A stretch of 64,000 bases of DNA from Kordiimonas sp. (GCA_002700365.1 PADB01000012.1:558001-622000); one strand, 5' to 3'; shown: positions 45,596 through 63,612, counted from the first letter of the stretch. Numbers and translations: made by a program. The notes: generated by a model not told the origin, from the letters alone.

Positions 45596-48421
45596 TTATT
45601 TTTTGATTTTCTTCAGCAATTCCATGGCGTCTTTATCACCATTAAAGCTAATGCCCTGAGACAAAATCGCCTCCAGCTCGCTTTGTGCCGCTCTATCATT
45701 GCCATTCTCATGTAATGCTACAGCCAAGTGATAACGAATTTCCGGATTGCTGCCAGCCAGTGCGGCGGCCTTCTGTAAAATTTTCAGTGCCGCGTCCACT
45801 TGGCCATCTTGAAGAAGTAACCAGCCATATGTATCCATGATAGCAGGATTTTCTTTTGCCAGCCCATATGCGGCTTGTGCCGTTGATAAAGCTTTTGCAT
45901 TGCCAACTTGCGAATAAATCCACGCCAGATTATTCAGTGCCAGCGCGTCTTGCTCATTGGCTGATACAATTTTCTCATAGGCATCTGCCGCATACTCATA
46001 CTTACCCATTTGCAAATAGATAGACGCAATGGAATGACGGGCCATCAAATCTTCAGGGTGCTTATCCAACCAGGCAAAAAGTGTTTTTTCTGCTGTATTG
46101 ATATCACCTGTTGCCTGCTGGGTGCGGGCCAATTCAATAATAAACTGCGTGCCTGTCGCACCGCGCTTCTGCCCATCAAGATATGCAGACAATGCCGCCG
46201 CATTATTATTTTCAGCCGCATGAACGCGGCCACGCAGAACTGGCCCAGCAGGACTATTCGGGTTTAAGGCTTCGGCCTGTTTTGCATATTCTAATGCTTT
46301 TGCATATTGTTTTTGTGATACCTCCAGCCGGCTGAGGTCAGCAAGCATTTCAATTTGCAATGATTTATTATCGGCCTCATTTGCCAGCGCAAACGCCTTG
46401 GACAAAGACTTCCTTGCCCCTGCGATATCTTCACTGGCCCACTGCGCCCGCCCTAATAATTGGTATGCCCCCGGGTTATCAGCCAGAATGACCGAAAGCT
46501 GCTGAAAATTAACAACAGCACCTTTATTATCGCCCATCAGCATATTGATTTTACCAAGGGCCTCGTATCCTGCCGCCTGATCTGAAAAATCCTGCGTCAA
46601 TTGTTGCGCCACCCCTTTGGCCTTTTCATTTTCCTGAAGGCCCAAATAGGTTTCCGACAACTTAATACGCGTATCAATGCGGCTTGGGTCCGCAGATATG
46701 GCCCGCTCTAAATAAGAAACACTTTCGTCTAGCTTTTCCTGTTTGTGCAACAAATTGACCATGCCCATTAAGGCCATAACGTTTTCTTTATCCTGTGAAA
46801 GGATATTTTCATAACGTCCGCGCGCCGCGTCTACTTTACCTTCACGCAAATCAACTTGTGCCAAATTCATCATCGCTGAATAAAAGTCAGCCTTGACATC
46901 TAGTGCAGCGGAAAACGCCTGTCGCGCGCCCACCAGATCTTCTTTGCCGATCAATGCTGCACCCTTAAGGTTGTAGCCAATAGGGTTGTCCTTATTTTGC
47001 TCAATAAGGCGGCTAGCCTGCATCAGGGCTTCGTCAAATTTCTGTTCTCGTAAGGCAATTAGTGACAACAGGACACCGGCCTGTTGTGCATCGGGGCTAT
47101 CCCCTACAACACCTTCCAGTTCGGATGTGGCTCCCGCCGTATCACCCTTGGCTAATTTACTAATTGCTAATTGGGTTTTTAACGTATCAACGCTCGGTTC
47201 CATTTCAACGGCACGGGCATAATATTCACTGCCCTTATTATAATCACCCAATTGCATATGGGCACTACCCATTAGCGCAAAAATCTTACCATCATCAAGG
47301 CCTGCCTTGACCAATGGTGTCATGGCGTCGATTGCCTGTCGTGGTTCGCCCTGCCGCAATAGTGCAGCTCCCAGAACCCGACGTGCCGCAACATGGCCGG
47401 GCATAATGTCCACCAGACGCGACAGGAAATAGACCGATTGAGCATAATTTTCCTGTGCATAATTGATAACCCCTTTAAGCAACAAAGCTGGCACAAAATT
47501 GTCCAGAGCGGGGCCTGCCTTATCCAGGAGATTAATGGCTTGGGCATTATTATTGTTACGGGTTTCGATAACTGCGGAAAAATATAATGCTAATGGATGT
47601 TTAGGAACTCGCGCATAGATCTTTTCCAGTGCTGCCCGGGCTTCATCATCACGCTGTAGTTCTACCAGTGACGCGGCATATTCCAACAATGCCGTCAGGT
47701 TCTCCGGTTCCTGCTCTAGGGCCGCCTCGAAATAAGATACAGACCCTTTTACATCGCCGTTTGCACGTACCTGTTCGCCCTTGACAATCAAGGCACCAAC
47801 ATTCGCAGGGGCAATCGCCAAAGCCTCCCCAACTTTTTGTTCTGCCAGCTCCATCTCCCCTTTAGAGAGATAAATACGTGCCAGCCCTACCTTAATTTGT
47901 GGGTCTTCGGGGCGCAGTACCTCCCCGGCCAGGTAATTTTCCATTGCCGCAGCATCATCACCTTGCCCTTTAAAAGCGTCCCCCACAATCAAATGGGCTT
48001 CGGCCTTATCATCCCCACGGACTTTATCCAGCAATGACATTTTCTGGATATCTGTAAACTTGCTTTGTAAAAGATATGCTTTACCTAATCGCACCAGTAG
48101 GTCAGCATCAGCAACACCCAATTTACGGGCATACTCAAATTCTTTTTCCGCGGACGCCCCATTACCCACTTTCAAATAGGCATCGCCGAGAAGCAGGCGG
48201 GCTTCCTTTAATGATGGATCCGCCTTCAGCGCATTTTTAAGCTCAATGATAGCGGCTTGTAGTTTTCCGTCATCGTAATAATTCTGCGCTTCGACTAGCA
48301 GATCATTACCTTTTCCATCCCCTAATCCCGCATGTGCCTCTGGGACAATCGCCATCACAGACAAAGACAGGATACTCGCAGATACAAGCATTTTAAGCTT
48401 TGTATTTTCAATTCCGAACAT
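45596..48421 (-). CDS. prsT: PEP-CTERM-system TPR protein PrsT, periplasmic form
   Basis: 941 residues. A Sec signal (MLVSASILSLSVMAIVPEAHA) ends with AHA before Gly, with no lipobox. The rest is some 20 TPR-type helix pairs, such as DGKLQAAIIELKNALKADPS and AQNYYDDGKL at the start. The ELKNAL-ADPSLKEARLLLGDAYL opening (seen in parts) is diagnostic for the PrsT family (TIGR02917) of exosortase loci. It probably acts as a periplasmic scaffold for export or sorting. It lies 42 bases after prsR and is the last gene of prsK-prsR-prsT. Confidence 0.93.
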   Translation of the reverse strand: MFGIENTKLKMLVSASILSLSVMAIVPEAHAGLGDGKGNDLLVEAQNYYDDGKLQAAIIELKNALKADPSLKEARLLLGDAYLKVGNGASAEKEFEYARKLGVADADLLVRLGKAYLLQSKFTDIQKMSLLDKVRGDDKAEAHLIVGDAFKGQGDDAAAMENYLAGEVLRPEDPQIKVGLARIYLSKGEMELAEQKVGEALAIAPANVGALIVKGEQVRANGDVKGSVSYFEAALEQEPENLTALLEYAASLVELQRDDEARAALEKIYARVPKHPLALYFSAVIETRNNNNAQAINLLDKAGPALDNFVPALLLKGVINYAQENYAQSVYFLSRLVDIMPGHVAARRVLGAALLRQGEPRQAIDAMTPLVKAGLDDGKIFALMGSAHMQLGDYNKGSEYYARAVEMEPSVDTLKTQLAISKLAKGDTAGATSELEGVVGDSPDAQQAGVLLSLIALREQKFDEALMQASRLIEQNKDNPIGYNLKGAALIGKEDLVGARQAFSAALDVKADFYSAMMNLAQVDLREGKVDAARGRYENILSQDKENVMALMGMVNLLHKQEKLDESVSYLERAISADPSRIDTRIKLSETYLGLQENEKAKGVAQQLTQDFSDQAAGYEALGKINMLMGDNKGAVVNFQQLSVILADNPGAYQLLGRAQWASEDIAGARKSLSKAFALANEADNKSLQIEMLADLSRLEVSQKQYAKALEYAKQAEALNPNSPAGPVLRGRVHAAENNNAAALSAYLDGQKRGATGTQFIIELARTQQATGDINTAEKTLFAWLDKHPEDLMARHSIASIYLQMGKYEYAADAYEKIVSANEQDALALNNLAWIYSQVGNAKALSTAQAAYGLAKENPAIMDTYGWLLLQDGQVDAALKILQKAAALAGSNPEIRYHLAVALHENGNDRAAQSELEAILSQGISFNGDKDAMELLKKIKK

Positions 48422-48463
48422 TGGATGCCCCCTTCAGGTTTTTATGCACTGATCTTCGTGTTT

Positions 48464-49816
48464 CTACAGTGTAATATCATATTGTTTCAGTAATCCGTAA
48501 AAAGTCGGACGACTTACGCCTAATAATTTGGCCGCTTGACTGATATTACCATCGGCCGTTGCAATTGCCCGCTTCAAAGCGCGTTTATCCGCCTGTTCGC
48601 GCACTTGCTTCAAATTTAATACTTCCGGTTCAATATCACCGGTATCCATATCCAAATCTTCGGCCGAAATTCTTTTACCGTCACACATAATAACAGCACG
48701 CTTTACCCGGTTTTCCAACTCCCGGACATTACCCGGCCAACTATGCGCCGACATGGCCGCCAATGCATCTTGTGAAAATCCCCGAATATTACGTTTATGT
48801 TCGGCATTAAACTTGTTCATAAAATGATGCGCCAGCAATGCCGGATCGCCGTCCCGTTCCCCCAGAGAGGGTATATTAATCGCAATTTCACTTAAACGGT
48901 AGTACAAGTCTTCGCGGAACCCACCATCAGCAATAAGCTGTTCAAGGTTCTGGTGCGTGGCACACACAATACGCACATCCACAGCAATTTCCTTACGCCC
49001 ACCGATACGTTCAATCACCCGTTCCTGCAAGAAGCGCAGCAACTTTACCTGTAAAGGAAACGGCAAGTCGCCAATTTCATCAAGGAACAAGGTGCCCCCT
49101 TGTGCCATTTCAATCTTACCTGGTGTCGTCTTAACCGCCCCTGTAAAGGCGCCCTTCTCATAACCAAACAATTCACTTTCCAGCAAATTTTCTGGAATAG
49201 CCGCGCAATTAATGGCAATGAATGCCTCTTTTTTACGTGGACTGTTATCATGAACCGCCCGGGCCAATAATTCTTTACCCGTACCGCTGGCCCCTAATAA
49301 CAATACACTCACATCAGCAGGCGCGACCCGTTCAATCATCTGACAGACTTTTAACATGGCTGTGCTACCGGTCACCAAACCGCCAAGCGTTTTGCCACTA
49401 CCGTTTTCTAAAAGGCGTCTATTTTCGGCCTCTAATTCATAAAGATTAAATGCCCTGCTAACAATTAATCCCAACGTATCCGGATCTACAGGCTTCTGAT
49501 AAAAGTCATAGGCTCCCATGGAAATAGCCTTTAAGGCACTCTCCCGTGCTCCATGACCGGATGCCACAATAACTTTAGTTTGCGGCGCCAATTTTAAAAT
49601 TTCATCTAATGTCGCAAAACCTTCAGACGTACCGTCCGGGTCCGGTGGCAATCCTAAATCCAAAGTCACGACCTTGGGTGTTTCCGCCCGAAGCATTTCA
49701 ATGGCCTCTTTACGGCTTCCCGCAATCAGAACCTCATAATCTTCGAAATTCCATTTATACTGCCGCTGAAGTCCAGGGTCGTCTTCAACAACCAGTAGCT
49801 TTTCTACATTGCTCAT
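48464..49816 (-). CDS. prsR: Sigma-54-dependent response regulator PrsR
   Basis: 450 residues: receiver domain (LLVVEDDPGLQRQYKW, phospho-acceptor in VVTLDLGLPPDPDG), AAA+ domain with Walker A GASGTGKE, the sigma-54-contacting loop GAFTGA and Walker B GGTLFLDEIGDL, then a Fis-type helix-turn-helix (NISQAAKLLGVSRPTFYGLL). The unusual long loop DPDGTSEGFATLDEIL in the receiver is typical of PrsR (TIGR02915). It should activate sigma-54 promoters such as the one before the PEP-CTERM gene at 56318. Ten bases separate it from prsK. Confidence 0.95.
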   Translation of the reverse strand: MSNVEKLLVVEDDPGLQRQYKWNFEDYEVLIAGSRKEAIEMLRAETPKVVTLDLGLPPDPDGTSEGFATLDEILKLAPQTKVIVASGHGARESALKAISMGAYDFYQKPVDPDTLGLIVSRAFNLYELEAENRRLLENGSGKTLGGLVTGSTAMLKVCQMIERVAPADVSVLLLGASGTGKELLARAVHDNSPRKKEAFIAINCAAIPENLLESELFGYEKGAFTGAVKTTPGKIEMAQGGTLFLDEIGDLPFPLQVKLLRFLQERVIERIGGRKEIAVDVRIVCATHQNLEQLIADGGFREDLYYRLSEIAINIPSLGERDGDPALLAHHFMNKFNAEHKRNIRGFSQDALAAMSAHSWPGNVRELENRVKRAVIMCDGKRISAEDLDMDTGDIEPEVLNLKQVREQADKRALKRAIATADGNISQAAKLLGVSRPTFYGLLKQYDITL

Positions 49817-49825
49817 TTTCTTATG

Positions 49826-51922
49826 CTACCTGACTGCTTTCTGCGTTATATTTTGCGGCGCGGCGTGATGCGATAGAAATATCGTGATCGCAGTCCCCTC
49901 GCCTTCTTTACTTTTTACATCCATACGTCCCCCCATTTTACGTATCATTTCCCGGCTCTCATAAGCCCCGATCCCATATCCCCCCGCTTTGGTCGAACGG
50001 AAGGGGCGATAGAGTTCGTTGCGGATAAAATCAGCACTCATTCCTTCACCATCATCACGAACTCTGATAATGGCAAATCCATCCTCTTCTTTAAGGCGGA
50101 CTTCAACCCGGCCAATGTCTTCTTCCGTTGCATCAATGGCATTTTGGACAATATGCATAATGACCGTTTGTAATTGTTCCTGATCTATATCCAATTCCAG
50201 CTTCTCAACATCACATCGAAAAGTTAATTTCCGGTTTGCAGTCTGTCTTTCTGCAACCATTTTTTTCAACAAAGGAACCAGATCGACTTGTTCGGCATTC
50301 TTCGTGGCGGCCACTTTTTCCGCTGGTTCTTTTACAACACTCAGCCGTGCGAGAAGATTATTCATCTTATCCACAGCCTCGCTCACGGTAATAACCATAT
50401 CTTTTTGAAAATCCGGATTAGACGCATGCTTTTCGGCATTACGCACTAATAAGGATAATTGACTGGCTAAATTCTTAATATCGTGCATCACAAAGGCAAA
50501 TTTCTGATTGAACGCTTCAAATTCACGGGCATCCGCCAATGCCTGTTCTGCACTTTGTTCAGCCAGATAACTGGCGACCTGCCGACCAACCGTTTTCAAT
50601 AAGTCTAGCGTTTCCCAATCCAGGTTTTTTGCAGCACGCGGCGTTTGAATAACCATAAATCCGATCATGCGCCCATGATGGATCAGAGGTAACAGCAACC
50701 ATGCCTGCGGATCTTCTTTCAACCAGTTCGGAACATCCACTCCCTTTTCACGTTCGTCACCCGTTCGGTCTTCACGCAGGTCTACAATCCATTCTTCCTG
50801 TTCCAGAAGGCGCGCAAACGCCCCGTCTGTTGCCAATTCACCGGAGGGAATGTTGTTGTAATTCCAATGCGCCACATGACTATAAAGATCAGGTTGTTCA
50901 CGCAACCATAAGGCACCACCGGGACTATCCAAAATATCTGCCACCGCCTGGATAACTCGGACCCGAAGCTCCAGATGCTTTTCACTGGTCGACACCGTAT
51001 TAATAAAGCGCAGCCATTCTTCACGATAATCGAAATGGTAATGGAAGAAATGTTTTAAAATCTTAACCCTGAGCCAAGCGCGCATTTGCCCGGACGACAG
51101 CAACACGACGAATAGCAATAAAGCAGAGAAAATAAAGGTTCCCTGTAATAAAGGTCCCCAACGCCCGCCAAAATATTGCAAGTAGTAACCTGCCGCCGCC
51201 ATCCCAATCAGGTAGGCCCCGCTGGCAATAAGTGAAATACTGTGAAAAATTACCCGACGGGAGACAAAAACCTGCAACGACCAGCTAGGGTTTCGGCTGG
51301 CCGAAATCGCAATCAAGGGCACCACCAGCACATTGGCAATGGCGCGCGCCTCGTACAGGCGTGAGGCATAACCGCCGAATAACACAGTATCCGCATAAAA
51401 AATAAAATCGAAAATATAAACAGCCCCAAGGCCTAGACAAAAGAGGCGAATACCCCAACGATTTTCCGGGTCTGTATTACGGTATAGGTTCTCCACAAGC
51501 AGCAGAACCGTTACAATCATCACCAGCTTGCTTAGAAAAACCGGATCGTCACCCATCCAGTTGTAGAACAGGCCTATTTCGTCCAAAGCATAGATTAAGT
51601 CCATGCCCAACATGGCCCCAACCATTAATCCAAAGAGGATATAGGCCCGCACCATGGTTCGCTCATTGCCCCGGCCTTGCCAGATTTGTACTAACACCAC
51701 CAAAAGAAATAAAACCCAACCGGCACTGCGTATGGTTTCAAACAAAGGTAAGAAGGGTTGAAGTTCAGGAAAACTGTCGCTGGCTAGGACATGTGATATA
51801 GCCCAGAGTAAACTGGTCGACGCTGCAATGATAAGCCAGCTTCCCGGTCCCTTATCTGTACGCCAGACAAAAAGCAACAGGATCAAGGCTACAAATGCCC
51901 CCGCCGCAACGCCATATGTCAC
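49826..51922 (-). CDS. prsK: PEP-CTERM-system histidine kinase PrsK
   Basis: 698 residues. About eight to nine membrane helices fill the first 280 residues, with no large periplasmic sensor. A GAF domain (about 300-460) and the kinase core follow: phospho-His in FVMHDIKNLASQLSLL, N-box QNAIDATEEDIG, DDGEGM and the G2 box TKAGGYGIGAYESREMI. This matches PrsK (TIGR02916). It should phosphorylate PrsR. GTG start; first gene of prsK-prsR-prsT, 53 bases after the sugar transferase. Confidence 0.94.
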   Translation of the reverse strand: MTYGVAAGAFVALILLLFVWRTDKGPGSWLIIAASTSLLWAISHVLASDSFPELQPFLPLFETIRSAGWVLFLLVVLVQIWQGRGNERTMVRAYILFGLMVGAMLGMDLIYALDEIGLFYNWMGDDPVFLSKLVMIVTVLLLVENLYRNTDPENRWGIRLFCLGLGAVYIFDFIFYADTVLFGGYASRLYEARAIANVLVVPLIAISASRNPSWSLQVFVSRRVIFHSISLIASGAYLIGMAAAGYYLQYFGGRWGPLLQGTFIFSALLLFVVLLSSGQMRAWLRVKILKHFFHYHFDYREEWLRFINTVSTSEKHLELRVRVIQAVADILDSPGGALWLREQPDLYSHVAHWNYNNIPSGELATDGAFARLLEQEEWIVDLREDRTGDEREKGVDVPNWLKEDPQAWLLLPLIHHGRMIGFMVIQTPRAAKNLDWETLDLLKTVGRQVASYLAEQSAEQALADAREFEAFNQKFAFVMHDIKNLASQLSLLVRNAEKHASNPDFQKDMVITVSEAVDKMNNLLARLSVVKEPAEKVAATKNAEQVDLVPLLKKMVAERQTANRKLTFRCDVEKLELDIDQEQLQTVIMHIVQNAIDATEEDIGRVEVRLKEEDGFAIIRVRDDGEGMSADFIRNELYRPFRSTKAGGYGIGAYESREMIRKMGGRMDVKSKEGEGTAITIFLSHHAAPQNITQKAVR

Positions 51923-51975
51923 TATACTGATATTAGTAATATCCTACCTCCGGCCACTTTGATAATTGCAAAGTA

Positions 51976-53364
51976 TTAACGAACACCATCGGGCCATAAC
52001 ACTACACGTACCGTCTGAATCAGGATAAGAAAATCCAGAAACAGAGAATAGTTTTTAATATAATAGAGATCATATTCCAGTTTGCGCCGGGAATCTTCTG
52101 TTGAGGCTCCATAGGGGTAATTAATTTGTGCCCACCCGGTAATACCCGGCTTTACCCGATGACGTTCGCTGTAATAGGGAATTTCCTGATCTAATTGCTC
52201 TACGAAAAACGGTCTTTCGGGGCGCGGCCCCACAAAACTCATATCACCGCGCAACACATTGACAATCTGTGGAATTTCATCAATTCGTGTCGTCCGGATA
52301 ATCCGGCCAATAGTCGTAACGCGATCATCGTTCTTTTTTGCCCATTGCGGCTTCCCTGCGGCTTCCGCATCCGTGCGCATGCTGCGGAATTTCATCACCT
52401 CAAACGGTTCTCCGTTTAGCCCAACGCGCTCCTGACGGTAGAACATAGGCCCCTTACTGGTGGCGACAATAAGCAATCCCGTCACAATAAGAATGGGCAA
52501 CGTTAAAAATAACAACAGCAGGCTGACAGAAACATCAAACAACCGCTTCATATAAAGTTCGTATTCCTTACCGCCACCAAAACCATCTGAAAAAATCAAC
52601 CAGCTCGGGTTGACAGATGCAAGGTTAACAGCCCCCGTCTGTTGTTCAATAAATGACGGGCCATCAGCCACCGCACAACCATTCATGCGACAATCCAGCA
52701 GGTCATCTACTGGCAACGTGCCGCGCCGTTCTTCAATGGCGATAACAATTTCCTCAGCGGCCTTATCTTCAAGAAATTTCGACAATGACGGTAATGCCTT
52801 ATAATCTATGGCATCGTCTATGGCCTGTTCATTATCCGCCATGCGTAAAAAACCGACGAATGTCACAGCCGCTTTTTCGTCATTCGCCAATTCACGGACC
52901 TTTGCTGCCCGCGTTCCCGCCCCCAGCACGACAACACGTTTATTAAACCGCTTCAGATTGACAACTTTAGAGAACGTATAACGGCTCAACAGAATGAAAA
53001 GAATTGAAAAGGATAAGGAGAGGATAATCACACTGCGCCAGATATCCACGTCAGGGATCAGGTAAAACACCACGGCCATGCCGACCACCGCAATAACAAG
53101 ACTTGCGACAAGACGGATCAATGTCACCCTAAGGTCACGGCATGTCTCAAGCTCATATAACCCTGCGGCCAGCATTGAAACATAAACAATTCCGACAAAA
53201 GACCATATCTCAATCAAATGTTCGCTAAAAACAGGTGTACCGATACCAATCTGGGCAAAACGCAAATGCATCGCGGCCCAAATCGCTGCAATCAGTGCCA
53301 AACATTCAATAAGCCCCAAAACAAAAACAGATTTCGGGATATAATGCTTAAATACCCTAACCAT
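51976..53364 (-). CDS. Exosortase-associated initiating sugar transferase (EpsB-like, TIGR03013)
   Basis: 462 residues. Four N-terminal membrane helices, a CoA-binding-like nucleotide domain (VVVLGAGTRAAKVRELAND), then a fifth helix (LLLLFLTLPILIVTGLLIVA) and the catalytic phosphoglycosyl transferase domain (FYRQERVGLNGEPFEVMKFR, MRTDAE, TRIDEIPQIVNVLRGDMSFV and GPRPERPFFV). It starts the repeat unit by moving a sugar phosphate to undecaprenyl phosphate. Members in this architecture are linked to exosortase loci. It precedes prsK on the same strand. Confidence 0.92.
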   Translation of the reverse strand: MVRVFKHYIPKSVFVLGLIECLALIAAIWAAMHLRFAQIGIGTPVFSEHLIEIWSFVGIVYVSMLAAGLYELETCRDLRVTLIRLVASLVIAVVGMAVVFYLIPDVDIWRSVIILSLSFSILFILLSRYTFSKVVNLKRFNKRVVVLGAGTRAAKVRELANDEKAAVTFVGFLRMADNEQAIDDAIDYKALPSLSKFLEDKAAEEIVIAIEERRGTLPVDDLLDCRMNGCAVADGPSFIEQQTGAVNLASVNPSWLIFSDGFGGGKEYELYMKRLFDVSVSLLLLFLTLPILIVTGLLIVATSKGPMFYRQERVGLNGEPFEVMKFRSMRTDAEAAGKPQWAKKNDDRVTTIGRIIRTTRIDEIPQIVNVLRGDMSFVGPRPERPFFVEQLDQEIPYYSERHRVKPGITGWAQINYPYGASTEDSRRKLEYDLYYIKNYSLFLDFLILIQTVRVVLWPDGVR

Positions 53365-53602: not shown

Positions 53603-54712
53603 TTATCTTAACGTTGTCAAAAAACGGCGTAATAATAATGGCAAAAACGTGAAATCATATATTAACGCTGCAAAAATCATTAGCGAAGACAACACGCCCA
53701 TACTCCAACTGGGCTCAAATCCTGACAATAATAACGCCATAAAGCCGGTTACAAGGACAATAGTCGTCGTCAAAAGCGCGTTACCAACTTTATAGAAGGC
53801 CGATGACATCGCGGCAACGGAATCCCCACCATTCCGTTTTAAAGCCGAAATGTATTTTGTAATGAAATGAATACTATCATCAACAACAATACCAAAGGCA
53901 ATGGCCGCGACAATGGTCACGGCAATCCCCGCTTGTCCAAAGAAAATACCCCACAAACCAAATCCTACCAAAATAGGTAAGACATTGACTGTAAGACTGA
54001 TCAGGCCCACACGCAGGCTTCTAAAACAGACCGTTAACAAAGCCGATACCAACAACAAGGCAACAGTAATTCCCCACAACATAGAATTAATGTTCTGTCG
54101 CGACATATTGGCAAACATAATGGTAATACCTGCCCCTTCTGCCTCCGAGGATGCCATCCCCTGATTGCGCAGCCACGTACTCACACGGCGGTCAAATTCA
54201 CGAATTTCAACAGACGTCATGGCCTTTGTCGTGACGCTAATACGCATTGTTTCTTTATTAACATCCATGCGATTATTCAGGTCCTGTCCCAAAGGCAATG
54301 ACATCTCATATAACAACAAATATTGCGCGGCCAACTCAGCAGATTCCGGTAGCCGATAGAATGCCTGATCCCCGCCATTTAGGTTCTTATTCAGTTTTTT
54401 AAATAAAGGCACCAGACTTGATACATGCGTGACCTCTTCTTGGCTTGATACCCACGTTGTAAAGCCTTCCACTTTTTTCAAAAAATCTGGCTGATAGATC
54501 CCTTCTGGCTCCCCCGCATGCAAGGCATAATCAATAACATCCATCCCCGTCAGATTATCAATGACGAATTCCGCATCACCTCGAAAAGCGTAACGATGGT
54601 CAAAATACGTCACCCAATCGTCATCCAGCTCTATACGCCCCATACCCGCGATCAATACAACCGACAATAATGCTACCCCCCCCCCATTAGTTTCATCCGT
54701 CGGAACAACCAT
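53603..54712 (-). pseudogene. RND-superfamily exporter, C-terminal half (out of frame with the N half)
   Basis: 369 residues from an internal ATG. After the poly-Gly bridge it begins with the seventh helix of an RND transporter (VALLSVVLIAGMGRIELDDD), has a large periplasmic loop and five further helices (WGITVALLLVSALLTVCF, AIAFGIVVDDSIHFITKYIS). The conserved FGIVVDDSIHF is the RND/MMPL channel segment. It overlaps the N half by 40 bases and has no plausible own start or ribosome site. It is read in frame only if the G tract at 54676-54685 has 8 or 11 G instead of 10. See the tract entry. Confidence 0.8.
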
Positions 54713-55869
54713 GGTCCTACGACCGAGAGCATACGCCCACTGGGCAATTCCCTTGGAGTACCCACAGGTAAAGCAAGAATAAACGCCGGCAAGAATAACA
54801 AAGACAGCCAGTAGCTACTGAAAATACCAAACGCCACCAAATTACCCAGATCCCTAAAGGGCGGTGCTTCACTGGCATTCATACTTAAAAAACCGATTAT
54901 TGTCGTAATTGTCGTCAGCGTAATTGGCAGTACATTTTCGCGTAATGCCATCTGCATGGCTGGCCTTTTCTCCAATCCATCTTGACGATATCCCAGAAAA
55001 GACATCAGCAAATGCATACTGTCCGCGACCGCCAGCGTCAGCACAATAGTCGGGGCCGCCGCGGATCCACTTGTTAAAACTATCCCCGCAACACTCCCAA
55101 ATCCCAATGTCATCAAACCCGATAACATTATCACCAGGATAACCCCGACAGCCGCCACAAGATTGCGTAAAAACAGAAAACTAAAAAACGCCATAATCAC
55201 GAGGACTATGGGAAATAAAGTCATAATATCGTCCTGTGACGCGGTTCCAAATGTCGCAGACAGCGCAATATCACCCACATAATAGGCATCAAACGCCGCA
55301 AAAGACTGCTGTACAAGCGCTATAGTATTCCGCGCTTCTTCCATCACTTCAAAAGCTGCATTGGGGTTTTCCGGCGGCAAAACAAACGTAATCTGCAACG
55401 CCGTTACATGCCCCATTTCTGAAACCAATTGTCCCGCCAAGTCATTTTCATTTTCTGCAATTTGACGAACTGTTTCAGCCTGACGCTGTGTAATTGGGAC
55501 AGTTGTCACCAGACTCTCTATAATAATATCGTCGTCTTCTGCGCGAATATGTTGATAATTCGACAGTGAATTCACCCGCGTAACATAAGGGAGCTGCCAC
55601 ATTTTCTCCGTGAGATCATATATCACTGCAAGAAAATCAGGATTGTAGATATCCCCTTCACGTGGGGCCAGGGCAATCATCAGCGTATTGCGCTTTGAAA
55701 ATCGGGCTTCTAATTCCTCTAGCGAAACACGAAACGGATCGTCTTTATCGAAAAACGCCCTTTCGTCCACACTAAATTGAAGCTGCGGAAGCTGTATCAG
55801 GAAAAAAGCGGCCGTAACCACAGTCATGACCAGCCACATCCACCTAAACCGCAAGATTTCTGCCCACAT
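54673..55869 (-). CDS. RND-superfamily exporter, N-terminal half (interrupted)
   Basis: 398 residues: helix 1 (WLVMTVVTAAFFLIQLPQL), a periplasmic loop of about 180 residues, then helices 2-6 (VLVIMAFFSFLFLRNL, LVAAVGVILVIMLSGLMTL, and TLAVADSMHLLMSFLGY for the channel). The protein ends ...FRRMKLMGGG and a TAG directly after the G10 run. An intact member of the family (predicted RND exporters, COG1033) would be about twice as long and continue into the next frame. It lies alone between the EpsB-like gene and the PEP-CTERM gene and might export a lipid or a matrix component; inference. Confidence 0.85.
   Translation of the reverse strand: MWAEILRFRWMWLVMTVVTAAFFLIQLPQLQFSVDERAFFDKDDPFRVSLEELEARFSKRNTLMIALAPREGDIYNPDFLAVIYDLTEKMWQLPYVTRVNSLSNYQHIRAEDDDIIIESLVTTVPITQRQAETVRQIAENENDLAGQLVSEMGHVTALQITFVLPPENPNAAFEVMEEARNTIALVQQSFAAFDAYYVGDIALSATFGTASQDDIMTLFPIVLVIMAFFSFLFLRNLVAAVGVILVIMLSGLMTLGFGSVAGIVLTSGSAAAPTIVLTLAVADSMHLLMSFLGYRQDGLEKRPAMQMALRENVLPITLTTITTIIGFLSMNASEAPPFRDLGNLVAFGIFSSYWLSLLFLPAFILALPVGTPRELPSGRMLSVVGPWLFRRMKLMGGG
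54676..54685 (-). repeat. Homopolymer tract G10 (C10 on the plus strand) inside the RND gene
   Basis: Ten G follow AT on the coding strand. With ten, the reading ATG-GGG-GGG-GGG-TAG stops. With eleven or eight, translation runs on as GTA-GCA into the second half. The tract sits exactly at the junction between the halves. Confidence 0.92.
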
Positions 55870-56317
55870 TACGACGATACCCTATATTGCGCATTATTCA
55901 TGATGAAATACATGGTTAGGCAATATCATAAATAGGTTAAGAGCCAGTAACAATCAGCAGTGTCAGCATTTTTTACAATCAAAAAAATTTCTTGTTTTAT
56001 ACAACAATATTTATACCAACATATTGATATTTAATGTTTTTTTATAGTTTTGCAGAAAAAGTATTATTCCCGGATACCACGCACTGCTCTTTCCCTGCAT
56101 TGCCCTGTCAGCTTTTTTTACAATTACGCTATTTCTTTTGCTGCCTCACCATGATATACAACACTACATAACAAGTAACCAATTGTTTTAATTATATATT
56201 TTGTGGTTTGGCACGGTGAGTGCATAGTATAGGCCGAAAGCTGTTCCACTAACGTAATTCTCCGGTACAGCCAAGTTGTTAAAGATTTACGATTGCGATT
56301 AACAAAGGAATATGAAA
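55870..56317. other. Intergenic region between the RND gene and the PEP-CTERM gene
   Basis: 448 bases, AT-rich, no gene seen. It carries the sigma-54 promoter for the PEP-CTERM gene and, presumably upstream of it, sites for an activator. The minus-strand promoter of the RND gene must also lie here; none could be read. Confidence 0.75.
56209..56224 (+). promoter_or_regulatory. Sigma-54 promoter of the PEP-CTERM gene
   Basis: TGGCACG-GTGA-GTGCA with GG-N10-GC; the -24 element is perfect and the -12 element has one change (G for T). About 94 bases separate it from the start codon, giving a 5' leader of about 80 bases. The sigma-54 activator PrsR is encoded 6.4 kb to the left. Confidence 0.82.
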
Positions 56318-57115
56318 ATGAAAAAGCTTCTTGCTACTAGCTCTATCGCCCTGGCATTGGGCCTTGCAGCAGCACCAGCCAACGCCTTTATCGTTGACGG
56401 TATCGAAGTAGACGCAGGCGCCACTCTGGCCGTTGCTGATGTTTACGAAGATACAGTTCTGGCTGTTGGTGACACACTGTCCGGTATCGGTCAGGTTGGT
56501 TTCATTAAAAACAAATTCGGTGCCTTCACATGGTTGTCAGGTGACAACGGTCGTGAGCTGACATTTGCGTTCGACGGTTTCATTCTGGAAACAGTTGTTC
56601 CGACAACACAAGGTGCTGATCTGTACTTCTCTGGCGGTCATGCTGAATTTTATTCAGATGCGACACCTGATTTCTCTATCAATCAGGGTCAGGCAGCAAA
56701 CCTTGCCAACGCAACTGACGGTGACCTGTGGTTGGGCGTAACTGCCGCTGCATCTTACGGCACTTGTGGCATTCTGCCTATCGCTGGTACATGTCTGAAC
56801 GGTGACGCCACGGGCATTACACTGATCAGCTCAGTAAACAGCGCAAACCTGGCTGCTGTATCAGGCGGTGACGGTGCAGCATTCTTCGATGCCGTATCTG
56901 GTAGCGCACTGAACAACTTCGACACAGACGGTGTTGGTGGTCTTTATGACTTTGACGCAAGCTTCGACTTTGATGATTTCCCTCCAACAGGCGATTATGA
57001 CCTGTCTGGTTCTGCGGACTTCAAAGCTGCCCCAATTGCTGAGCCAGTAAGCCTGGGTCTGATGGGTGCTGGTCTGGCTGGTCTGGGTCTGCTGGGTCGC
57101 CGCAAGAAAGCCTAA
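56318..57115 (+). CDS. PEP-CTERM sorted extracellular protein
   Basis: 265 residues. A Sec signal (LLATSSIALALGLAAAPANA) is followed by an acidic, Gly/Ala/Asp-rich beta-type body of unknown function with one possible disulphide (YGTCGI and GTCLNG). The C-terminus has the sorting signal: AEP, a hydrophobic stretch (VSLGLMGAGLAGLGLLG) and RRKKA, so AEP stands for PEP. Exosortase cuts there. I chose the second ATG (56318): AAGGA is 8 bases away, against 2 for the ATG at 56312. Codon use is C-rich and uniform, like icd, suggesting very high expression. A sigma-54 promoter lies upstream and a terminator downstream. Confidence 0.93.
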   Translation: MKKLLATSSIALALGLAAAPANAFIVDGIEVDAGATLAVADVYEDTVLAVGDTLSGIGQVGFIKNKFGAFTWLSGDNGRELTFAFDGFILETVVPTTQGADLYFSGGHAEFYSDATPDFSINQGQAANLANATDGDLWLGVTAAASYGTCGILPIAGTCLNGDATGITLISSVNSANLAAVSGGDGAAFFDAVSGSALNNFDTDGVGGLYDFDASFDFDDFPPTGDYDLSGSADFKAAPIAEPVSLGLMGAGLAGLGLLGRRKKA

Positions 57116-57277: not shown

Positions 57278-59329
57278 TTATGGTGCTGTTTTAATCAACC
57301 TTTTCAGGGTTAAGCGTGCTGACCTTGCGGCAAGTGGCTTTCGTGCAGGATATCCTATACGCCCCATGAACAGAATGTCTTCTGGCGGGGCATTGAAAAC
57401 CGGCTGGAAATGCCCCGCTAGCTTCTGCGCCTTCTCTTTTTCAACTTGCGATGATGTAAAATCATCACCACGTGCACCATAAGTCCCAAAACAAAGCGGT
57501 GCCAGATTAGGTTGCATTGCCAAACCGTAACGGCTGGCTTTTAACCAAAAACGGCCTAAGTGACGCCCGGCTTCCAACAATTCCTGTACTGTCATCTCTT
57601 GCGGCTTCACGCCCGCCACTGGCCGGATTGTAAAATGTGCCCCACATCCCAACCCCGGCTTTATATCCATCAACAAACGCGCCAACACAGTCCCACCAAA
57701 AAAACGATTAATCACATGTGTCCGCTTCCAACTCTTCATTGCCCATTTCATGACTTTTATCGTCACTGCATCAAGGCCTAAGTTCGTCACAGGAATTCCC
57801 GATGGACTATCACCAGAAGACCAATCCAAAGTCTTTCTATGAACTTCATATGTTTCAGGAATTTGCAAACGTATATCGGTTGCTTCCGCGCTAATCTGTG
57901 AAATTTTCCACCGTTCACCCAATGGGTCATGCCAAAAAACTTTAAGACTATCGCCCAATGTTTTGCTTAGTTCCGCCTTTATTGCAGACGGTATCGATGT
58001 TGTTTGATAGGCCCGTCGGTCCGTTTTTCGCAATTGAATATAATCGGCTAATGGATCAGGTTCAGGTGTCGCGTCCATCAATTTCACATTCAGGATAAGC
58101 TGATCTGCGCTGTGCTCTACAACAAAATAGCGCATATCGCAGCCTCTCACCCCGGCCGCCAGGCAGATATTTTCCAATAACATCCCTGCAGATAAAATAG
58201 TCGGCTGCCCCTTATTGTACTCATAGACATTTTTGCCTCCACTCAGGGTCACGTGAATTTCTACTTCATCGTGATTTTTAAGCACAAAACGCCACGGCTG
58301 GGAATTATCACCGCTTGGCGTCCAACGCGCCTGCGCCAATACCTGCTCTATCAGCGATGCCGAAACAAGATCTGCTGGGTTCCCGGCCTCCAAACCTTCC
58401 GCCGCCCGGCCAATTCTTTTGGCTAAGCTCTTCCCAATGAGGCATTTCAATCTCTGGATCGGGTTTCTGTTCCCAAAAGGCATAAAGCCCCGCACAAATT
58501 TACCACGGTAAATATCATACTGCTGATAATAAGGGGCCGGCCAAATTTTTCCTCTGCCCAGAAGAACTTTCAACGCCTCTCCCACTAATACCCCTGTGCA
58601 TAGCTCTACCGCAATAATGGTAGATGGTCCCTTTTTTCGGCTCAGGTCCACACGGCGGTCATCCATTAGATAAGGGCGTTGTAACAACCGGGGGGCCAAA
58701 CCAAATAGGAAATTCACGTATTGTTGCAGTTCATCTTTACCATCAATTTGAAAGTACTCTTCAAAGGTCATCTTTCCCGGTAAGAACGTTAAATAAGCTG
58801 TCCCCATACCTAACGGTGCAGCGGTAATTGCCGCAATACCCTTTTCCGCGCAGGCCTTGAAGACCTGTGCCCGAATATCCATAACAAAAAAATCCAGTCC
58901 ATCAACATATAGATCTACATCAGCTAAGAACCCATCTACAGTTTCCGGCTGCACCCCTTCAGGAAAACAGGTGACTTCCGCCTCGGGGTTAATATCCCGG
59001 ACCATTTCAGCCAGAACATCAACCTTTGAACGCCCTAAGGTGGAAACTTTTGCCCCCACCTGACGATTAAAATTCGCGAGATCAAAATCATCCATATCAG
59101 CGATATGAAATTTACAAACGCCTAACCGTGCCAGGGTCATAAGGTGACTTCCACCTACCCCCCCCATACCGGCAATCGCCACTTTCTTTGTCTTGAGCAG
59201 AAGTTGTTCTTCTTCTGTAACCCAACCAATATTCCGTGAAAATGCCGTATTGTAATCAAACGTCGCCGTTAATGACGATTCTGAAAGTTCTTTTGATCTG
59301 GACGTATTGTTCATATTTTCAACAATCAT
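57278..59329 (-). CDS. ThiF/MoeB-type adenylyltransferase fused to a nitroreductase-like domain
   Basis: 683 residues. Residues about 25-290 are an E1-like ThiF domain: AIAGMGGVGGSHLMTLARLG (ATP loop), ADMDDFDLANFNRQ, DGLDFFVMDIR and the late CTGVLVGEALKVLLG. I see no Cys-x2-Cys zinc pairs and no obvious catalytic Cys. Residues about 325-670 are a flavin-dependent nitroreductase fold: RWTPSGDNSQPWRF, the mid-part GCGAHFTIRP and FMGRIGYPARKP. The same fusion occurs in a group that includes mycobacterial Rv1355c, whose reaction is unknown. An ATP-activating step followed by a redox step on one substrate is suggested. It is followed convergently by the PEP-CTERM gene and lies next to prsT2 and the acyltransferase. 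Confidence 0.87.
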   Translation of the reverse strand: MIVENMNNTSRSKELSESSLTATFDYNTAFSRNIGWVTEEEQLLLKTKKVAIAGMGGVGGSHLMTLARLGVCKFHIADMDDFDLANFNRQVGAKVSTLGRSKVDVLAEMVRDINPEAEVTCFPEGVQPETVDGFLADVDLYVDGLDFFVMDIRAQVFKACAEKGIAAITAAPLGMGTAYLTFLPGKMTFEEYFQIDGKDELQQYVNFLFGLAPRLLQRPYLMDDRRVDLSRKKGPSTIIAVELCTGVLVGEALKVLLGRGKIWPAPYYQQYDIYRGKFVRGFMPFGNRNPIQRLKCLIGKSLAKRIGRAAEGLEAGNPADLVSASLIEQVLAQARWTPSGDNSQPWRFVLKNHDEVEIHVTLSGGKNVYEYNKGQPTILSAGMLLENICLAAGVRGCDMRYFVVEHSADQLILNVKLMDATPEPDPLADYIQLRKTDRRAYQTTSIPSAIKAELSKTLGDSLKVFWHDPLGERWKISQISAEATDIRLQIPETYEVHRKTLDWSSGDSPSGIPVTNLGLDAVTIKVMKWAMKSWKRTHVINRFFGGTVLARLLMDIKPGLGCGAHFTIRPVAGVKPQEMTVQELLEAGRHLGRFWLKASRYGLAMQPNLAPLCFGTYGARGDDFTSSQVEKEKAQKLAGHFQPVFNAPPEDILFMGRIGYPARKPLAARSARLTLKRLIKTAP

Positions 59330-59373
59330 CTCTATTTTGGCCCTGGCCTATAAGTCCACTTAATAAAGAAGAC

Positions 59374-59402
59374 AAAAAATAGGCTGGAAGAAATTCCAGC
59401 CC
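59374..59402 (-). terminator. Terminator of the prsT2 gene
   Basis: Minus strand: GGGCTGGAA pairs perfectly with TTCCAGCC around the loop TTTC, then TATTTTTT. It stands 42 bases after the prsT2 stop and before the ThiF gene, which thus has its own transcript or depends on read-through. Confidence 0.88.
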
Positions 59403-59443
59403 ATTGTAACGACAATTTATTGCCACTTCCTAAAGCAATTAAT

Positions 59444-62263
59444 TTATTTTTCTAATTCATCCAGAAGCTGTTGCGCAGAGGCACTTTCCTGCCCCTGTTT
59501 CAGTAACGCTGCCTTCCGTAACATTTCACGCCCCGTCACCTCATCACCATTGGCTAATAACGCCTTCGCATGGTTGAACAAGATCCGGGCATCGGGTTCT
59601 ATGCTGGCCTCCAGTGCTGTTGTTGAAAGGCGCACGGCTTCTTCGACTTTACCCGCGCCCAAAGCCGCGGCCGCAGCCGTATCAAGTGCCACGGCATTCG
59701 TCGGGGCCTTCTTCGCTAACTTCCGCGCGTTCTCCCAGGCTTCTGCCGTCTCGCCCAATTGTGTCTGTAGCCCCGTCAAATTATTGAGGACGGTAATATT
59801 TTCAGGCTGCGCCTGCAGCAGGGCTGCATATAGATCACGGGCTTTCGTATAGTCTTCATCTTGCAAATAGACCGCGCCCAACGTCAATCCTGTCAAAAAG
59901 TCTTGTGGGTGTGAAGCCCGCCAGCTTTCCAATTCTGACACGACTTCTTTCGTGTCGCCTTGGCGCATTTCTGAAACAGCAAGCTTTCTAAGGACACGGA
60001 CATCTTCTTGTGCGACAAAAATTGCCCGGTAGCTATCCGCCGCCATACTGTAATCCTGTTTGTTAAAGGCGATATCCGCATATACCTCATCAATATACCA
60101 GACGGATACATTTTTACGCTCCACCTGTTCCAGTATAGCCAATGCTTTACCTTCTTCCCCAGTCAGTGCGTAAGCCCGACTAAGCATTAATTGTGCGTTG
60201 ACGTTCGCTGGCTCTAGCCTCAAACCGCGACGAATATTGTTAACGACACGCCCCCAATCACGTAACGCCTCATACGCCTCAGCGAGATAAAAATGCGACA
60301 TCGATCTATCAGGGGCCAATTCCGTAAGGCGGGTAAAAGAATTCACCGCATTTGCCACCTGTCCGGCGTTCAATTCCGCAAGGCCTACTATTTCATATCC
60401 TGCAGGGTTAACAGGTGCCATTTCAATAACCTTGCGCCCAAGCGGCAAAGCCCGTGCATATTCATCATGTGCCACATAATGGCGCGCCAATAAATAATTT
60501 GCCGCCATGACATCGGGATTGTTTGCCAAACAACGCTCTAATATACTGGTTAAATTGTCCTCCCGCCCTTGCTGTTGTTCAAGTCGGTACAGTTCCAGAT
60601 AAGAACGGATATCTTGCGGGAAATGCTCTATGACATTTTCCAGTAATGATCTTACTTCATCCCACTTCTCATCCGCAGCGGCATATGTCATCAAATAACG
60701 GGAGGCATCGGGATGGCCTGGTGCAATTTGCAATGCTTCATTGAATTTTTCAATTGCAGCAGCCTGTTCTTTCTTGGCCGCCAACGCGACACCTTCCATC
60801 AAAACAGGTTCCGGCTTATCCGCAAAAGATTGCTGAATCTCTTGTGCAAGAACAATCCCTTCATCCAGCATATTTGATCGAATATAACTTTCCAGTAAAA
60901 CCAGTTGCTTTACATATGAAGTGGGGTCCATCCGCACAGCTTCTTGCAACGTATCAATACCTGCCGCCTTATCCCCCATTTCATATTGAGTCCGCCCTAA
61001 TTGCGCGACGACCATGGCGTTATCAGGTGCGGAAAGTCTGGTTTTTTCAAGAAAATCTCGGCCCTTATTCAAATCACCTTTTTGCAATGCCGTCTGTGCA
61101 ATTAAGGAAAGTAGCTCAGGGTCTGTCTCATTATCACGCAGTACAGATTCCAAACCGGAAAGGGCCTGATCGATCTGCCCCAAACGAATTTGGACTTTGG
61201 CGTATAATTTACGCCCTGCAACATCACCAGGATACGCCGCAACATATTTCGTAAGATAACTATAGGCCTGTTCATATTCGCCCAGGGCATAGGCCGCAGC
61301 CCCGCCTAACAAGGCGGAACCCCATTGTGTATCACGTTCATTAAAGGCAATATCCGCGTGATTACGCGCCGTTTCAAAATCCTGCTGATGATAATTCACT
61401 GCCGCTTTAATATGATTAGCAATGGGATTTCTTTCGCTAACCGATAACACCATATCGATATGTTTCTCAGCCAAATCATATTTTTTATTCTGTGACTGAA
61501 CCCAAGCCAAATATGACCGATAAAACAAACTTCCGGGCCTTTTATCCACCAACGCCTGAAAAGCGGCTTCAGCCTCATCCAGATTACCCAATTCCCGATT
61601 TAATTCACCGCGAAGTTTTAAAACTTTTTCATGGCTTTCAAAGCCTTCACTGGCACGGGCAAGGTATGACTTTGCCTCATCAATGTGTTGACGACGTAAA
61701 TTGACATATCCCATACCGACAAGCGCGTGTACAGAACGAGGGGCCTGCGCCAATACCTCCTGGTATAAATTTTCCGCCGTGATGACATCTCCCACCCCCA
61801 GGGCCGCCTCACCTTTCAATGCCTTAAGTGTTAACTGAACCGAAAGTGGCAACTCTGCATCAACCACAACATTTTCTTGAACCTTTTCAAATTCGCGCTG
61901 CAGTAACCAGGCTTCTGCCAGAAGCGGTAAAATCTTGGAATCTTCAACGCCATTTGTACGGGCATAATCCAATTCTTTTTCCGCCGATTTTCCATCCCCC
62001 ACCGCAACATATAGTTCCCCTAACAAATAACGTGCCGTAGTGTTGTCAGGGCTTTGACGTAAGACGTTCTTTAATTCAATGACAGCAGCACCCAGATTTC
62101 CTGCTATCTTAAATTCTACAGCACGATCAATACGTTGTTCTGTTGTAAAGTCTGTTTTGCCCTCACACCCCCCAAGAGCCAACAACGTGACCAAGGCAGT
62201 TGTCGTCACCAGCTTTTTAAACACTTTAGCCCGACCGCCTATATTCTTTAGTTCATTACCCAT
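59444..62263 (-). CDS. prsT: PEP-CTERM-system TPR lipoprotein PrsT, second copy
   Basis: 939 residues. A signal (VFKKLVTTTALVTLLALGGC) ends in the lipobox LALGGC, so this paralogue should be a lipoprotein. Then TPR repeats run to the end, opening with GNLGAAVIELKNVLRQSPDN and LGELYVAVGDGKSAEKELDY. It is homologous over its length to the protein at 45596-48421, which has no lipobox. The two could work in different compartments: one free in the periplasm, one lipid-anchored. It starts 137 bases after the acyltransferase, past a strong terminator, and ends at its own. Confidence 0.93.
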   Translation of the reverse strand: MGNELKNIGGRAKVFKKLVTTTALVTLLALGGCEGKTDFTTEQRIDRAVEFKIAGNLGAAVIELKNVLRQSPDNTTARYLLGELYVAVGDGKSAEKELDYARTNGVEDSKILPLLAEAWLLQREFEKVQENVVVDAELPLSVQLTLKALKGEAALGVGDVITAENLYQEVLAQAPRSVHALVGMGYVNLRRQHIDEAKSYLARASEGFESHEKVLKLRGELNRELGNLDEAEAAFQALVDKRPGSLFYRSYLAWVQSQNKKYDLAEKHIDMVLSVSERNPIANHIKAAVNYHQQDFETARNHADIAFNERDTQWGSALLGGAAAYALGEYEQAYSYLTKYVAAYPGDVAGRKLYAKVQIRLGQIDQALSGLESVLRDNETDPELLSLIAQTALQKGDLNKGRDFLEKTRLSAPDNAMVVAQLGRTQYEMGDKAAGIDTLQEAVRMDPTSYVKQLVLLESYIRSNMLDEGIVLAQEIQQSFADKPEPVLMEGVALAAKKEQAAAIEKFNEALQIAPGHPDASRYLMTYAAADEKWDEVRSLLENVIEHFPQDIRSYLELYRLEQQQGREDNLTSILERCLANNPDVMAANYLLARHYVAHDEYARALPLGRKVIEMAPVNPAGYEIVGLAELNAGQVANAVNSFTRLTELAPDRSMSHFYLAEAYEALRDWGRVVNNIRRGLRLEPANVNAQLMLSRAYALTGEEGKALAILEQVERKNVSVWYIDEVYADIAFNKQDYSMAADSYRAIFVAQEDVRVLRKLAVSEMRQGDTKEVVSELESWRASHPQDFLTGLTLGAVYLQDEDYTKARDLYAALLQAQPENITVLNNLTGLQTQLGETAEAWENARKLAKKAPTNAVALDTAAAAALGAGKVEEAVRLSTTALEASIEPDARILFNHAKALLANGDEVTGREMLRKAALLKQGQESASAQQLLDELEK

Positions 62264-62297
62264 TCTTACCGCGCCCCTGCCTTCGCTAAAAAATTAT

Positions 62298-62336
62298 AAA
62301 AAAACCGCTAACATTCCCATCACGAAATCTTAGCGG
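62298..62336 (-). terminator. Terminator of the acyltransferase gene
   Basis: Minus strand: CCGCTAAGATTTC pairs with GGAATGTTAGCGG (one G:G mismatch, one wobble) around the loop GTGATG, then seven T. It lies 65 bases after the stop of the acyltransferase. Confidence 0.9.
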
Positions 62337-62400
62337 CACAAAATAATCAAAAATCACGGTTGGAATGCAACATGAAACACGTCGCCTCCCCCCTTTTACT

Positions 62401-63243
62401 TTAACCTACATGCGCCACAGCTGATGGCTCAGCCTGAAATGCCTCACCACCCCATAGCTGCCCGCATTCCGTGACCACTTCCCAGACATCCCGCTGCTCT
62501 TCATGCATGCGCGCCAGCAATGTATCAACATCACTGTAAAATGCCCGGCGGCGACCATGGAAATTCAAAATCGGACCAACGGGTGTGAGATGTATTCCCA
62601 TACGGCGCAGCAAACGCTCCAGAGCCGGCTCCATCAAAACTGCCAGATGCGTCATATTATGTTCAACACCTACCCGCAGTGCCGCTGTCATTAAACCTAA
62701 TGTAATGTGCGGAATAATCCGACGTTCATCGATTTTATTGTGTACATCAGTATAGGCAGGAATATGTGTATCCCCCTGACGCATCCGGAACTGTTTAGAT
62801 ATTGAAAAACGCGAAATTTCTGCTGTTGTTGCTTTCGGCAATTCTTTTTCATCCAAAAGCTGCACATCAGGAGAGACAATCCGTGCAGGAATAGTCTGCC
62901 CATTAACCGCGCCCTCTGGATCCGGCAAAATAACGCGCACCGTTCCCGCCACGAGACCCGATGGTTTATGGATCAAGAGGCTGGAAACTGAATGGGTATC
63001 AAAATGATCCCGTTCCATTCCATCAGGAAAGGCGTCTTTGTCTTCAAAACCCGTTTCCAGGCAATAAACCTGATAACGTAACCGAAAACATTCTTCCAAT
63101 CGTTGTGGAGTATCCGCAGGCAGAATTTGAAACAATTTATTATAATATTCCACTAACTTTTCGCCTTCATAATCTGACGCAGACTTTTGGGGCGTGTTAG
63201 TCTCTATATTTCCTGTATTGTGCTTATGATCAGCAACAGCCAT
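62401..63243 (-). CDS. PEP-CTERM/exosortase-associated acyltransferase (N-acyl amino acid synthase superfamily)
   Basis: 280 residues, GNAT-like fold related to FeeM and LuxI-type synthases. The pattern LEECFRLRYQVYCLETGFED with Arg-Tyr/Val-Tyr-Cys-x2-Glu, ERDHFDTHSVSSLLIHKPSG, VAGTVRVILPD and TAEISRFSISKQFRMR is the signature of the group TIGR03694. Members linked to exosortase clusters have been reported to make long-chain N-acyl amino acids from acyl-ACP and an amino acid. Substrate here is unknown. The ATG at 63243 has GGAG 6 bases upstream, better than the TTG at 63255. It is divergent from the partial gene at the right edge. Confidence 0.9.
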   Translation of the reverse strand: MAVADHKHNTGNIETNTPQKSASDYEGEKLVEYYNKLFQILPADTPQRLEECFRLRYQVYCLETGFEDKDAFPDGMERDHFDTHSVSSLLIHKPSGLVAGTVRVILPDPEGAVNGQTIPARIVSPDVQLLDEKELPKATTAEISRFSISKQFRMRQGDTHIPAYTDVHNKIDERRIIPHITLGLMTAALRVGVEHNMTHLAVLMEPALERLLRRMGIHLTPVGPILNFHGRRRAFYSDVDTLLARMHEEQRDVWEVVTECGQLWGGEAFQAEPSAVAHVG

Positions 63244-63612
63244 TTGGTTCTCCAACTATAAACCATACTCGGTTCTTAAGGGCTATTGCATGAGGTTAAA
63301 GATGAAAGGTTTATCTATCCTTAATTTAAGTTCCCCTTTATTGGTTTTCTTTCTGTTCTTAATAAGGCACTCAGAAAAAACATCTTGAAGCTTGAGCGTT
63401 AAAGTATATCGGAATGATGGTAGAGCAACCAGTCTCAATTCTTTTTTTTATAATTCTGTAAACGGATTTTAACTTTTTGTCCAATAAGCTGTTATAACTA
63501 TTAAGCTCTTATTCTCGTTTAAAGATTAATTACAATTTTTGATGTATACGTCCACACGGACATTAACCATAATAGACAAAATATTTTGCAACCAACGCCA
63601 CAGAATCACCTG
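63244..63612. other. Divergent intergenic region left of the right-edge gene
   Basis: 369 AT-rich bases between the acyltransferase and the partial gene. A small hairpin (GTCC-ACAC-GGAC, about 63552-63563) is visible. No sigma-54 site or CtrA box was found. Confidence 0.7.

Follow-up and report, generated by a model that had tools for sequence, protein, structure and literature searches.

Putative acyl-oxazolone lipid genes beside an exosortase-type (XrtA) regulatory locus in Kordiimonas

Introduction

An acyltransferase gene, a lipoprotein gene and a gene for a ThiF–nitroreductase fusion follow one another in a 64,000-nucleotide stretch of DNA from Kordiimonas sp. (GCA_002700365.1, PADB01000012.1:558001-622000), hereafter the window. 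Do they serve one pathway, and what would it make? An earlier note had suggested that the acyltransferase makes an acyl-amino acid, whose carboxyl group the ThiF domain activates and which the nitroreductase-like domain oxidises. This core idea is strongly supported by the gene neighbourhood, a triple fusion, homology to the kyonggic acid cluster and published biochemistry (PMC12856293, PMC10404671). The note had treated the chemistry as open; it was in fact published between 2021 and 2025.

Results

Identity of the three genes

ORF reading and profile matches placed all three genes on the minus strand at window positions 57278-63255. Their ORFs are not the product of chance, and the names given in the earlier note proved right (matches to TIGR03694, TIGR02917 and ThiF-nitroreductase profiles). 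The acyltransferase starts with a TTG at 63255; the 63243 of the note is an in-frame ATG. The features of the region are as follows.

62401..63255, minus strand: predicted acyltransferase of the N-acyl amino acid synthase type (TIGR03694, LuxI/FeeM fold), from profile, Pfam and model
59444..62263, minus strand: PrsT-type TPR protein with a lipobox, XrtA/PEP-CTERM associated (TIGR02917)
59378..59405, minus strand: terminator-like hairpin between PrsT and the fusion, 12 pairs and a T run
57278..59329, minus strand: OxzB/TrzS-type fusion of a ThiF cyclase and a flavin-dependent oxidase, from profiles, residues and model
58421..59266, minus strand: ThiF domain of the fusion, aa 22-303 (NF006077, identity to Massilia kyonggiensis, invariant ATP-site residues)
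57278..58375, minus strand: nitroreductase-superfamily domain of the fusion, aa 319-683 (identity to M. kyonggiensis, NF005901, Acg 2YMV)
56312..57115, plus strand: putative PEP-CTERM surface protein, PepA-like (weak NF033554 match below cut-off; PEP-CTERM-like tail in the translation)
56209..56224, plus strand: sigma-54-like -24/-12 site before the PEP-CTERM gene (pattern match)
53603..55869, minus strand: MMPL/RND transporter, two ORFs in different frames (profiles)
45596..53364, minus strand: XrtA regulatory/EPS neighbours, comprising a PrsT paralogue, PrsR, PrsK and a TIGR03013 glycosyltransferase (profiles)

The acyltransferase scored above the cut-off of the TIGR03694 exosortase-associated acyltransferase family (239 bits, cut-off 112, E = 5e-71) and matched the Pfam families Autoind_synth, Acetyltransf_5 and FeeM. 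Its AlphaFold model resembles AHL synthases as closely as it does FeeM (2G0B). Residues R60, E81, D86, R107, E146 and R149 are invariant among 26 homologues, in the spacing known from LuxI-type synthases; these charged residues and the fold are compatible with both FeeM and LuxI-type synthases. BLAST found no useful similarity between the window acyltransferase and the FeeM-type synthase of M. kyonggiensis. The protein is predicted to carry out the first step of the pathway, in which an amino acid is acylated at its nitrogen. Because the protein is of the TIGR03694 rather than the FeeM type and its fold lies as near to AHL synthases, its type does not fix the amino-acid substrate, which by analogy with known members is probably aromatic.

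The fusion protein (683 aa) joins a ThiF domain (Pfam, residues 31-279, E = 7e-41) and a nitroreductase-superfamily domain (Pfam Nitroreductase, residues 321-355, E = 4e-8) in one chain, the architecture of OxzB and TrzS. Against the ThiF family NF006077/PRK08223 it scored above the cut-off, with 411 bits over residues 22-303 (cut-off 266). It fell below the cut-offs of the ThiF-nitroreductase subfamily NF011424/PRK14851, a partial match of 411.9 bits over residues 7-610 (cut-off 1170), and of the Rv1355c (TrzS) equivalog NF005901, with 145.6 bits (cut-off 476) and the best stretch in the C-terminal half. A search of control genomes with the NF005901 profile gave no match above cut-off, and no TrzS-type protein was among the plasmid matches listed. 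Both halves have counterparts in M. kyonggiensis (locus L039), at 57% identity over 298 aa to its ThiF protein and 35% over 360 aa to its nitroreductase.

The AlphaFold model of the fusion (mean pLDDT 87.8) resembles two structures with which TrzS has been compared as well (PMC12856293): ThiF of E. coli (1ZFN) and Acg, a nitroreductase homologue (2YMV). The solved sequences nearest to the ThiF half were TcdA and ThiF, and Acg was the solved structure nearest to the other half. TcdA activates and cyclises the carboxylate of N-carbamoyl threonine, a chemistry close to oxazolone formation. Across 35 fusions, the ATP-site residues G54, G56, G57, G59, D78, R89, K102, D146 and R153 are invariant or nearly so, with GxGGVG (54-59), D78, R89, K102 and D146 invariant and aligned with TcdA. 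The flavin-domain motif W336-x-P-S-G-D-N-x-Q344 is likewise invariant or nearly so. R487 and Q606, possible counterparts of R540 and Q651 near the FMN of TrzS, are invariant in the same set and lie at a similar distance (119 residues, against 111 in TrzS); D217, R540 and Q651 of TrzS were mapped onto the fusion indirectly.

Linkage between synthase, ThiF and exosortase

A genome scan yielded 71 loci, 70 of them with a usable ThiF. A synthase was located within 10 kb in 60 of these 70 loci and within 1.5 kb in 47; within 10 kb, TIGR03694 was present in 39 loci and FeeM, Pfam-checked on examples, in 22. Among the fused loci, a synthase was found within 10 kb in 21 of 25, and three more were recognised by other evidence, namely a FeeM-CRP protein adjoining the fusion (L010, L025) and an acyltransferase fragment at the contig edge (L016). 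The FeeM-CRP proteins (L010 8747-9967, L025 8438-9676; Sedimenticola hydrogenitrophicus) are FeeM-type synthases fused to a cyclic-nucleotide-binding, CRP-like domain, and their genes stand directly before the fusion (Pfam on L010). At the Massilia-type ThiF loci L041, L046, L055, L063, L066, L072 and L135, which have no nitroreductase nearby, the opposite strand carries a further gene of the FeeM type some 1.9-2.0 kb downstream.

The same association emerged at the level of genomes. The fusion occurs in 12 of 41 relatives; the acyltransferase is present in all 12, compared with 7 of the 29 lacking the fusion (Fisher 6e-6). In a phylum sample of 398 genomes, 17 carry the NF006077 ThiF, 15 of these together with TIGR03694 and the other two (G240, G296) with FeeM. 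Exosortase accompanies ThiF in 15 of the 17, as against 73 of the 381 genomes without it (Fisher 5e-9, kinship ignored). All 37 examined fusion-bearing genomes have an exosortase, against 22% of the phylum sample; as the 37 were retrieved through their resemblance to the fusion of the window, they describe its relatives and not all ThiF-nitroreductase fusions. By the standard of the earlier note, a fusion occurring mostly in genomes without exosortase or acyltransferase would have spoken against its idea; with exosortase in 37/37 and a nearby synthase in 21/25 fused loci, the reverse was found.

Exosortase A is also present in the window's own genome, about 310 kb from the three-gene group on the same contig (TIGR03109, 306.7 bits, cut-off 208; G000:C1:243-245 kb), among other XrtA genes. 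No exosortase was detected in the genomes G115 and G296, which carry a synthase and ThiF, and therefore the link between the enzymes is the more general one. The G115 locus (L131 8908-10661), from a genome of the same class as the window, has an acyltransferase adjoining a ThiF that stands alone, the stretch holding no nitroreductase.

The clearest sign that all three activities belong to one pathway is a protein encoded on plasmid pDVUL01 of Nitratidesulfovibrio vulgaris DP4. The 989-aa DVUL_RS15680 carries FeeM (43-198), ThiF (316-565) and Nitroreductase (609-638) domains in one chain, and is flanked on one side by an XrtA operon for exopolysaccharide, which includes a TPR protein, and on the other by PEP-CTERM genes. 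For the part read, this TPR protein scored 306.8 bits against TIGR02917, just under the cut-off of 312.

A single origin of the fusion was rejected, as the ThiF tree does not accommodate one fused clade: it requires 16 changes between fused and separate forms, at least 5 of them forced, although frameshift artefacts may account for some of the separate forms seen in draft genomes.

Proposed pathway

We propose, with a probability of about 0.85, that the acyltransferase and the fusion together make acyl-oxazolone lipids by a pathway like those of OxzAB and TrzAS. The observations on which we build are domain identities, residues, gene linkage and co-occurrence; from these we infer the substrates, product, order of steps and cellular role. 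Proteins with the OxzB/TrzS architecture combine an ATP-dependent ThiF cyclase with an FMN-dependent, O2-using desaturase and convert N-acyl amino acids to acyl-oxazolones; OxzB is a ThiF-nitroreductase fusion acting on Tyr/Phe, and TyzB/TyzC are separate versions (PMC12856293, PMC10404671). By this scheme, the acyltransferase would acylate the amino nitrogen of an amino acid with a fatty acyl group. The ThiF domain would then use ATP to adenylate the free carboxyl, which the amide oxygen would attack, closing the oxazolone ring. A 2,3 double bond would then be added by the domain of nitroreductase fold, using FMN and O2. The ring could stay closed, or water could open it to an N-acyl dehydro-amino acid like the kyonggic or thalassotalic acids.

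Several known systems invite comparison. By published description, the window resembles OxzA/OxzB of Pseudoalteromonas rubra, an acyltransferase gene with one ThiF-nitroreductase protein, whose products are acyl-oxazolones of Tyr/Phe (PMC10404671, PMC12856293); the window differs in the PrsT gene between the two enzymes and in its setting beside an XrtA regulatory locus. TrzA/TrzS (Rv1356c/Rv1355c and homologues) share the fusion of a ThiF cyclase to a flavin-dependent oxidase, and NF005901 matches the window protein, albeit far below its cut-off; their amino acid is Trp, and their main hosts are mycolic-acid bacteria. The clusters for kyonggic acids, thalassotalic acids and stieleriacines contain the same enzyme set, but with separate ThiF and nitroreductase and, in Massilia, a FeeM-type synthase, whereas the window has a fused protein and a TIGR03694-type synthase (PMC12479983). 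DVUL_RS15680 (NF011425/PRK14852) likewise has ThiF and nitroreductase domains beside PEP-CTERM genes and an XrtA locus; it differs in holding the synthase within the same chain, and its annotation is ThiF family only.

Since kyonggic and thalassotalic acid producers showed no oxazolones (PMC12479983), the pathway could instead end in the open dehydro compound: the ThiF domain would supply a short-lived activated or cyclic intermediate on which desaturation depends, and hydrolysis would follow. This is a variant of the acyl-oxazolone explanation, compatible with its first steps, and we consider it possible but rather unlikely. The M. kyonggiensis cluster has been proposed to make the kyonggic acids, which include N-acyl dehydro-amino acids. 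ThiF and nitroreductase genes are present in the producers of kyonggic acids, thalassotalic acids and stieleriacines, in which no oxazolone was seen (PMC12479983). The tryptazolone ring is hydrolysed by acid (PMC12856293). Against this variant, oxazolones were detectable with TrzS and TyzBC, and in other studies the ring may have been lost during work-up with acid or methanol (PMC12856293).

Two rival readings were weighed. Protein activators exist in the ThiF/E1 superfamily and PEP-CTERM proteins adjoin the locus, so that the ThiF domain might activate the C-terminus of a protein or peptide, such as a ubiquitin-like protein or a PEP-CTERM tail, with the fusion modifying an envelope protein instead of a lipid. 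This is very improbable: the linked partners are N-acyl amino acid synthases, even in G115 and G296 and in the triple fusion, and the members studied experimentally use N-acyl amino acids (PMC12856293, PMC10404671). That the acyltransferase and the fusion are unrelated neighbours, both merely belonging to an XrtA region, is already contradicted. Exosortase loci do collect many envelope genes, and PrsT and terminator-like hairpins separate the two in the window; however, many lineages have the two directly adjoining, frequently only 0-50 bp apart, adjacency is also seen in G115 and G296, which lack a detected exosortase, and their activities are joined in the triple fusion and by the 12/12 co-occurrence in relatives.

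Relation to the exosortase system

The enzyme pathway itself is already known; what is new is the strength of its association with exosortase, the gene order containing PrsT and the location of a triple fusion next to an XrtA locus. A link between N-acyl amino acid synthases and PEP-CTERM/exosortase genes was reported by Craig et al. (2011), as cited in PMC7293339 and PMC4897644, and the window shares this arrangement; the passages of these two papers citing that work do not mention a ThiF-nitroreductase partner. Our literature search, which covered co-mentions in part, found no paper joining acyl-oxazolones with exosortase, and the close linkage of acyl-oxazolone genes to this system has apparently not been reported before.

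The role of acyl-oxazolones has been called a major unresolved question (PMC12856293). Tentatively, and with the odds against it, the exosortase/PEP-CTERM envelope system of Pseudomonadota and at least one desulfovibrio might include acyl-oxazolone (or N-acyl dehydro-amino acid) synthesis as one of its functions. The lipid would then help to assemble surface polymers or proteins, or take part in sensing, with PrsT participating at the envelope. The candidate acyl-oxazolone genes lie beside surface protein-sorting machinery here as in dozens of other bacteria. Exosortase in every examined fusion genome, a conserved PrsT order in one family and a three-enzyme protein by an XrtA locus in another phylum give the acyl-oxazolone and exosortase questions a shared, testable lead, and proteins listed as 'hypothetical' or 'ThiF family' can now receive a probable function.

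PrsT and gene order

PrsT scored well above the cut-off of TIGR02917 (584 bits, cut-off 312) and is a predicted lipoprotein, with the lipobox LALGGC in its translation. A paralogue lies at 45596-48421 after PrsR (TIGR02917, 660 bits). By eye, no signal peptide is visible in the acyltransferase or the fusion, and both enzymes appear to be cytosolic. The suggestion in the earlier note that PrsT holds or passes on the product thus fared poorly: given a lipoprotein between enzymes without signal peptides, a direct carrier role seems unlikely, and order-level relatives lack PrsT between the enzymes.

The order acyltransferase-PrsT-fusion was found in six genomes of the window's family, the genes being separated by 51-102 and then 6-26 bp. 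For a seventh member (G765) the contig ends inside PrsT and only PrsT-fusion is visible. PrsK/PrsR/TIGR03013 genes are present at most loci of this family. In four order-level relatives (G768, G771, G774, G775) and one class member (G708), the acyltransferase directly precedes the fusion. Thus the intervening PrsT is, on this comparison of gene orders, a lineage-specific gain or loss. We also rejected PrsT as a fixed component of the pathway, given these relatives and G769, which keeps PrsT without the fusion. There (L137 9579-15108), acyltransferase and PrsT are followed by a 534-aa FAD-binding oxidase where the fusion would be.

The earlier note had each gene terminated separately. This is right in part: in the window, the 12-pair hairpin with its T run lies between PrsT and the fusion and a longer-looped repeat, identified by eye, between the acyltransferase and PrsT. 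The PrsT-to-fusion gap of 6-26 bp in relatives makes the group look operon-like there, and loosely spaced in the window.

Regulation and neighbouring genes

The sigma-54-like site, which lies 103-141 bp before the PEP-CTERM gene, is conserved in four relatives (L119, L120, L121, L123). It is absent before the three genes, and counted over the whole window the -24/-12 pattern does not exceed chance frequency. The idea that sigma-54 jointly regulates the PEP-CTERM gene and the three genes was accordingly discarded, the site standing only before the former, and the earlier caution that the sequence does not establish co-regulation was justified.

The MMPL/RND transporter of the window is a possible exporter, possibly broken: its relatives have a single ORF of 760-880 aa, and its two frames reflect a frame break or a sequencing error. 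Among relatives without the fusion, a diverged acyltransferase adjoins a full-length RND transporter at L136 (7370-10591), L140 (2288-5509) and L141 (7285-10527), and two of these three alternative cassettes lie at the XrtA regulatory locus.
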